Shown here piece after piece: positions 25,175 to 25,888 of a DNA stretch of 35,246 bases (positions are counted from its first letter, which is position 1; each line of letters opens with the position of its first letter). The position numbers and the translations under genes were made by a program. The notes under the pieces were generated by a model. It saw only the letters and a program-made list of their open reading frames with translations. It did not search any database and was not told where the DNA came from. This stretch comes from Dehalococcoidia bacterium. Lineage in GTDB: Bacteria > Chloroflexota > Dehalococcoidia > Lucifugimonadales > Lucifugimonadaceae. The stretch lies in assembly GCA_026421185.1 (NCBI GenBank), contig JAPKCH010000017.1, positions 1 through 35,246 of the forward strand, read 5' to 3'.

Positions 25175-25215
25175 AACTGTCTAGTTGAAATCAAGAACTA
25201 GACAGTTAAGTTTTT
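25175..25215 (+). terminator. intrinsic terminator of proS
   Basis: AACTGTCTAGTT (25175-25186) pairs perfectly with AACTAGACAGTT (25196-25207) around a 9-base loop, followed after AAG by TTTTT (25211-25215). It lies just after the proS stop. Confidence 0.85.
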
Positions 25216-25372
25216 ATGAATTTGTTCCAATAATGAATATGTATTACCGCATGTAGCACTTCGCAGGTAGAATAGTTTAAGTGTTCGCTTAGTTCGATGA
25301 CAGACTTGCAGGTTTCCTTATAGGAAATCGAGTGATTCTGGCGAATGTCTTGAGCGGGTACTAAAAAAAGAA

Positions 25373-25441
25373 CGTGGGACGATAACCGTACGTACGGCAA
25401 TTGGATATGTTCAACTGTGAACATTCGATGGGATTCCCACG
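25373..25441 (+). promoter_or_regulatory. structured 5' leader of the RRM protein gene (possible three-way junction)
   Basis: An outer stem CGTGGGA (25373-25379) with TCCCACG (25435-25441) encloses two self-complementary elements: CCGTACGTACGG (25386-25397) and TGTTCA-ACTG-TGAACA (25408-25423). Together they can fold as a three-way junction ending only a few bases before the ribosome-binding region (GAGG, about 25445-25448) of the gene at 25457. The inner palindromes could instead be protein operators. The fold is seen by eye, not by energy calculation. Confidence 0.5.
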
Positions 25442-25456
25442 AACGAGGCTTGATTT

Positions 25457-25810
25457 ATGGGTAAAAAGTTATTTATTGGTAGCCTGGCATGGGCTACAGA
25501 CTCTTCTGGTCTTCAAGCTGCTTTCGAGCGGTTTGGTGAGATCGAAGAAGCTACGGTTATCAGTGATCGCGAGACCGGACGGTCACGTGGTTTTGGTTTC
25601 GTAACGTTTGTTGACGAAAGTTCAACACAGCAGGCTATTTCAGAAATGAATGGTTCAGATCTTGATGGTCGACCAATCGTTGTGAACGAAGCTAAAGAGC
25701 AGGCTCCTCGTAGCGGCGGCGGCGGCGGCGGCGGCGGATACCGTGGCGGCGGCGGCGGCAGAGACGGCGGCGGCGGCGGCGGCGGCGGCGGACGACGCGA
25801 ACGCTGGTAA
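25457..25810 (+). CDS. RRM-domain RNA-binding protein with glycine-rich C-terminus
   Basis: The 117-residue protein is one RNA recognition motif followed by a Gly/Arg tail. RNP2 is KLFIGSLAW (4-12) and RNP1 is RGFGFVTF (44-51), both with the aromatic residues that stack on RNA. The tail is almost pure glycine with interspersed R, Y and D (YRGGGGGRDGG), ending RRERW. This is the architecture of cyanobacterial and other bacterial Rbp proteins, often cold-induced RNA chaperones; that role here is inference. The tail is encoded almost only by GGC triplets. The gene has a structured leader and its own terminator, so it is monocistronic. Confidence 0.92.
   Translation: MGKKLFIGSLAWATDSSGLQAAFERFGEIEEATVISDRETGRSRGFGFVTFVDESSTQQAISEMNGSDLDGRPIVVNEAKEQAPRSGGGGGGGGYRGGGGGRDGGGGGGGGGRRERW
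25714..25794 (+). repeat. (GGC)n trinucleotide tracts within the RRM gene
   Basis: Three runs of GGC triplets (starting about 25714, 25745 and 25766) are separated by short non-Gly codons. Elsewhere glycine codons are mixed (GGT, GGA, GGC), so this uniformity looks like microsatellite expansion. Slippage would change tail length in steps of one residue without breaking the frame. Confidence 0.75.
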
Positions 25811-25852: not shown

Positions 25853-25888
25853 ACGGGTGTGGCTTTCGGGCTGCACCCGTTTTTTTTG
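25853..25888 (+). terminator. intrinsic terminator of the RRM gene
   Basis: ACGGGTG (25853-25859) pairs with CACCCGT (25874-25880); a run of T continues to 25888. It lies 43 bases after the stop. Confidence 0.85.

Follow-up and report, generated by a model that had tools for sequence, protein, structure and literature searches.

The stretch of DNA analysed here (hereafter the window; 35,246 nt) is one contig (C78) of the 2.13-Mb draft genome of a deep-sea SAR202 Chloroflexota bacterium from the genus of Candidatus Lucifugimonas. SAR202 is a major lineage in the ocean, and isolates of it are now in culture (Candidatus Lucifugimonas marina, PMC10444878). A gene for a glycine-rich RRM protein lies between proS and nusA, in the order proS, RRM gene, nusA. 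The features of this locus are as follows.

25175..25215, + strand: probable intrinsic terminator of the upstream proS, which sets proS apart from the RRM unit (12-bp stem and T-rich tail)
25268..25273, + strand: putative -10 box TAGAAT, for a promoter belonging to the RRM gene itself (in-register hexamer, at -106 from P1 in the window's copy)
25280..25362, + strand: P0, a long hairpin with imperfect pairing, at the predicted transcript 5' end (folding z, and pairing in an 11-copy subgroup)
25363..25372, + strand: A-rich linker (sequence and alignment)
25373..25379, + strand: 5' strand of P1, CGTGGGA (98.7% of helix cells paired; 2 pairs changed on both sides, plus G-U)
25380..25385, + strand: junction strand J1/2, CGATAA, unpaired (invariant in the alignment except at one position)
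25386..25397, + strand: P2 hairpin CCGT/ACGG (CCGTACGTACGG), with a nearly invariant stem and a variable loop
25407..25424, + strand: P3 hairpin, ATGTTCA (25407-25413) with TGAACAT (25418-25424), loop variable (94.1% of cells paired; 4 of 7 pairs changed on both sides)
25425..25434, + strand: junction strand J3/1, TCGATGGGAT, unpaired and nearly invariant (alignment)
25435..25441, + strand: 3' strand of P1, TCCCACG, at a fixed distance from the ATG
25445..25448, + strand: Shine-Dalgarno-like GAGG (GAG invariant in 24 of 24 copies)
25457..25810, + strand: gene for the glycine-rich RRM protein, 117 aa (Pfam RRM_1, E 6.8e-21)
25460..25483, + strand: codons 2-9, with the strongest synonymous constraint in the RRM gene (synonymous entropy)
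25853..25887, + strand: intrinsic terminator 3' of the RRM gene (12-pair stem and T run)

The hairpin of the probable proS terminator has a folding energy of -16.1 kcal/mol (z -3.87), equalled by none of 200 shuffles. Since terminators flank the RRM gene on both sides, at the end of proS and at its own 3' end, it appears to be a separate, single-gene transcription unit. The same genome harbors a second copy of the gene, a paralog with an RRM domain 90% identical. The terminators of the two paralogs are near-alike, GGGTGTGGC...GCTGCACCC (L002:1873-1896; window 25853-25880), and this similarity suggests that the gene and its flanks were probably duplicated as a whole unit. A gene for bacterial RNase P RNA (RF00010; L053:2312-2687) is located, in one species, about 1.1 kb or less from the second RRM copy.

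Upstream of the RRM gene, a 69-nt element forms a three-way junction (P1/P2/P3) that ends 16 nt 5' of the ATG. An earlier note on this DNA had described an outer 7-bp stem enclosing two palindromes and followed by the ribosome-binding region; the arms lie where it placed them, and RNA folding of the element returned the same three helices, at -23.1 kcal/mol. The note also held that three complementary pairs in 69 bases could hardly be due to chance. On energy this does not hold, since the fold is ordinary (z -1.47; 18 of 200 dinucleotide shuffles were at least as stable), and the case for the junction therefore rests on its relatives, in which 97.0% of cells are paired. The J3/1 strand is able to form a small rival hairpin, TGGG-ATT-CCCA, which is thermodynamically plausible; it is weakened in two sister copies that keep P1, and was ranked as secondary. 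When the full-length ensemble is predicted, a local hairpin and the coding sequence both compete with P1, whose mean probability is 0.34 at 20°C.

Pairing and covariation were assessed on 22 distinct homologous leaders drawn from 24 copies. The junction pairs were standard-paired in 97.0% of cells compared to 94.9% in shuffles, none of the 500 shuffles reaching the observed value, and the covariation score was likewise equalled by 0 of 500. When the partners were slid, pairing fell to 30-50%. Changes on both sides were found in 7 of the 20 junction pairs, among them pairs of P1 and P3. Most of the covariation sits in P3 (TGTTC/GAACA, TGTCC/GGACA, TGCTC/GAGCA and others). In P1 two pairs have changed on both sides, including one copy with GTGGAA/TTCCAC, and two copies carry a G-U pair; the covariation of P1 amounts to few changes. 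The support for P2 consists of invariance and one G-U change, with no covariation. The compensatory changes that had been anticipated for the outer stem and both hairpins are thus present in P1 and P3 and missing from P2, and the uncompensated drift of the arms that would have spoken against the structure does not occur in P1 and P3, which co-vary across the 22 leaders. In the alignment of copies, J1/2 (CGATAA) and J3/1 are almost invariant, whereas the hairpin loops and J2/3 are variable. Conserved, unpaired strands adjoining a closing helix usually mark a binding site, and we therefore read J1/2 and J3/1 as a candidate binding site. Compensatory pairing was found for P0 (below) as well as for the junction, with slid-partner controls far lower, and it is virtually certain that a conserved structured leader exists.

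To map the distribution of the leader, a covariance model of the junction was built and run in the family, the order, the class and the window's own genome. The family and order searches returned 24 copies, one for each RRM gene of this subfamily found in the genus (24/24). These 24 RRM genes come from 16 of 19 congeneric genomes, the window's own counted; in the three congeners with no detected RRM gene the leader is absent too. A DNA search gave a matching picture: for both paralogs and across 16 of the 19 congeneric genomes, similarity starts abruptly at about 25355-25375 and extends into the gene. The family, order and class searches found no copy before another gene and none outside the genus, and at E 0.01 none elsewhere in the order. 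A class-level match (G472, E 0.0024) proved to be a false positive within dnaK, and a weak match outside the genus (G020, E 0.097) was taken as noise. In its own genome the model found just the two known copies, so no shared regulon is seen. A pattern scan of 84,980 species genomes located the element in 21 stretches, every one labelled SAR202, Dehalococcoidia or Chloroflexi, two of them on the complete Candidatus Lucifugimonas marina JH1073 genome. Viral contigs contained neither a relative of the RRM gene nor the leader. The leader is kept in different genomic contexts, either between proS and nusA or with an MFS-transporter-like and a monooxygenase-like gene, which indicates that leader and RRM gene behave as one unit.

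Neither in the window nor at the leader in 8 loci did Rfam give a match at the gathering threshold (sub-threshold matches only, E 3 or worse), and the literature, searched mostly outside subscription papers, yielded no such motif and no relevant RNA switch in SAR202. We class the leader as a new RNA family of a known kind. In a neighboring genus (L018 and L019), where the RRM genes are 64-65% identical, the leader is different: a terminator-like hairpin, AGAGCTTGATGA...TCATCAAGCTCTTTT, lies about 30-90 nt 5' of the RRM start and has no Rfam match; it is possibly an attenuator or the end of an upstream gene.

The junction is likely the 3' part of a longer transcript leader. A TANNNT hexamer is located 92-97 nt 5' of P1 in 21 of 24 copies against a local background of 5% (binomial p ~1e-24, for copies that are related and not fully independent). 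Where a copy had several hexamer hits, the -10 box was chosen by eye, and the box positions defined where the P0 segments were cut out. No TTGACA-like -35 element was recognised upstream of the -10 box. A C-rich motif, TGAATAAnCnCCCCA, occurs about 20 nt 5' of the box in roughly half of the relatives and is not clear in the window's copy (25230-25267). This motif and the lack of a recognisable -35 suggest that the promoter may be activator-dependent or unusual. Transcription is predicted to start near 25280, giving a leader of about 177 nt. The conserved motif thus puts the likely start about 80-95 nt 5' of the element and not downstream of 25373, where it would have contradicted the earlier note. 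The span of 25373-25456 given in that note does contain the structure, but covers just the 3' half of the likely leader, and P0, the promoter motif and the synonymous constraint in the early codons are missing from its description.

P0 folds with a z of -3.56 in the window's copy and a mean z of -3.17 over the 24 copies. A closing helix extends across the region in almost every copy, the sequences being too diverged for a good genus-wide alignment. In the alignable group of 11 copies, 91.2% of cells are paired compared to 31-44% with slid partners, a margin somewhat favored by drawing the structure from the same alignment, and in 10 pairs both partners have changed. Of five measures compared with 500 shuffles, four were reached by 0 to 3 of them and the fifth, the number of pair types, by 150. 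In 11 relatives (alignment A3, columns 30-41), P0 is capped by a conserved small hairpin, ATC-ANCGA-GAT, that is absent from the window's copy; in the other paralog group, some copies have GTC-AGCAA-GAC instead. This apex hairpin is a possible second protein-binding loop. No terminator-like hairpin with a U run was found in the leader (+ strand, 25216 to 25457), and transcription attenuation was rejected for the lack of such a site.

The distance from the last C of CCCAC to the ATG (25457) is 16 nt in 20 of 24 copies. Constraint continues into the coding region: the mean synonymous entropy of codons 2-9 is 0.29 bit, the lowest of the 69 eight-codon windows in the first 78 codons. A TTA and a TTT among these codons are fixed in 22 of 22 complete copies, while in proS plus nusA TTA makes up 6% of Leu codons and TTT 19% of Phe codons. 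This constraint may come from a weak start-codon hairpin or from selection for efficient initiation. That hairpin is predicted to be marginal, at -0.7 kcal/mol at 37°C and -4.9 at 15°C. The predicted unpaired probability of the Shine-Dalgarno sequence is 0.28 at 4°C, 0.32 at 25°C and 0.36 at 37°C, and that of the start codon ranges from 0.10 to 0.29, so the scan of predicted accessibility from 4 to 37°C showed no clear switch. A helix that would sequester the Shine-Dalgarno sequence, AGGCU with AGCCU of codons 9-10, is complete in 17 of 24 copies and was rejected as no better than shuffled pairings (5000/5000).

We propose that the leader would act as a dedicated cis-acting RNA of the single-gene unit for the glycine-rich RRM protein. 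RNA synthesis would begin near 25280, and the first ~83 nt would fold as P0, which probably shields the mRNA from 5' decay. After the A-rich linker would follow the compact junction, in which CGATAA and TCGATGGGAT would make a binding site against P1, whose end, 16 nt before the start codon, would lie within the footprint of the initiating 30S subunit. In the bound junction P1 would be clamped shut, hindering ribosome loading; in the free junction P1 would breathe and translation would go ahead. Since the Shine-Dalgarno sequence is not clearly sequestered, any repression would need to act sterically. As the bound factor, the RRM protein itself is the most likely, which would give autogenous feedback. 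The analysis establishes the conserved structure, its exclusive link to this gene, the in-register promoter motif and the fixed spacing to the ATG; we infer binding by the RRM protein, repression when bound and the stabilising role of P0. The earlier note had called the region a possible regulatory leader of the RRM gene; a structured, RRM-specific leader is well supported, and its probable regulatory role is deduced from its conservation, its exclusivity to the RRM gene and its position before the start codon. Self-binding by the RRM protein and cold control, which the note also raised, are candidate mechanisms. That the leader exerts translational control of some sort is probable. Its restriction to one genus and one RNA-binding-protein gene, with a near-invariant junction by the ribosome site, is best fitted by autogenous translational control, for which we put the chances slightly short of even; the exclusive linkage also fits non-autogenous control. 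Target mimicry was rejected, as elsewhere in the genome the junction strands have only scattered matches with 2-3 mismatches.

Several features would also be accounted for by other roles. If P0 and the junction protected the mRNA 5' end or formed an RNase III site, with no ligand-dependent switching, then P0 would be expected to start at the predicted transcription start and to keep its pairing while its sequence drifts, as it does; such a stability or processing element is nonetheless unlikely, because it leaves the near-invariant junction strands and the fixed spacing between P1 and the ATG without explanation. Somewhat less likely is a temperature-responsive leader, whose fold or mRNA stability would shift and raise RRM synthesis in the cold with no specific bound factor. 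The cyanobacterial rbp genes make cold control plausible by analogy, as the protein class is related and 5'UTR-dependent cold control is reported for Anabaena rbpA1, and the marginal start-codon hairpin is predicted to strengthen in the cold. However, melting of a hairpin would induce in heat rather than in cold, the predicted accessibility of the Shine-Dalgarno sequence hardly moves over the scan (0.28 to 0.36), and near-invariant unpaired strands point to a binding site and not to a melting switch.

The binding site could instead be occupied by another protein or a small molecule that sets RRM expression. In layout, the conserved joining strands next to P1 together with the variable loops are reminiscent of known ligand-binding junctions, and Rfam holds no match; riboswitches, however, usually serve several genes in wider groups, whereas this leader precedes one gene in one genus, and we regard such an aptamer as improbable. 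An operator or internal promoter acting at the DNA level is very improbable: operators commonly carry inverted repeats, but the G-U intermediates in P1 and P3, the stems kept while the loops drift, the promoter motif ~94 nt 5' of P1 and the constant distance to the start codon all argue for RNA.

Autogenous control remains our preferred reading of the junction. A wider proposal, which we consider doubtful, is a genus-specific leader of two domains, a 5' hairpin (P0) that evolves freely and a conserved three-way-junction aptamer, with constraint reaching as far as the ninth codon. By sensing either the protein it encodes or a metabolite, this leader would set the level of a eukaryote-like glycine-rich RRM protein. 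If true, the two-domain sensing leader would be an undescribed class of regulatory RNA and, as far as we found, the first dedicated one in SAR202. RRM proteins occur widely in bacteria, their control and targets mostly unknown, and the leader offers a concrete candidate RNA partner for one of them. If the RRM protein binds it, then CGATAA and TCGATGGGAT are the first candidates for the recognition site.

Autogenous leaders of ribosomal proteins, such as that of S15 (rpsO), place a structure just 5' of the start codon of one RNA-binding-protein gene, have a narrow taxonomic range and often form a junction or a pseudoknot. The RRM leader is likewise structured, near the start codon, linked to a single RNA-binding-protein gene and narrow in range, and by this analogy would be an independent instance of the type. 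It differs in that its gene encodes a glycine-rich RRM protein, no Rfam match or rRNA mimic was identified, and self-binding is presumed. In ompA mRNA a stem-loop at the 5' terminus is stabilising; P0 similarly lies at the predicted extreme 5' end, with a presumed stabilising role, but, in contrast to ompA, is followed by a second conserved domain. The rbpA1 gene of Anabaena variabilis is reportedly cold-regulated with involvement of its 5'UTR, also a candidate control element of a bacterial RRM gene here; the SAR202 leader comes from a different phylum, and the two are likened by description and not by sequence. For RbpB, an RRM protein of Bacteroides thetaiotaomicron, a CLIP site in its own mRNA has suggested autoregulation (PMC11697453). 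Unlike the SAR202 leader, it belongs to a different clade and comes with no conserved leader structure in the accessible part of that report (PMC11697453). RbpB thus provides a precedent for the arrangement we propose for SAR202, in which the mRNA of an RRM protein carries a site for that same protein (PMC11697453).
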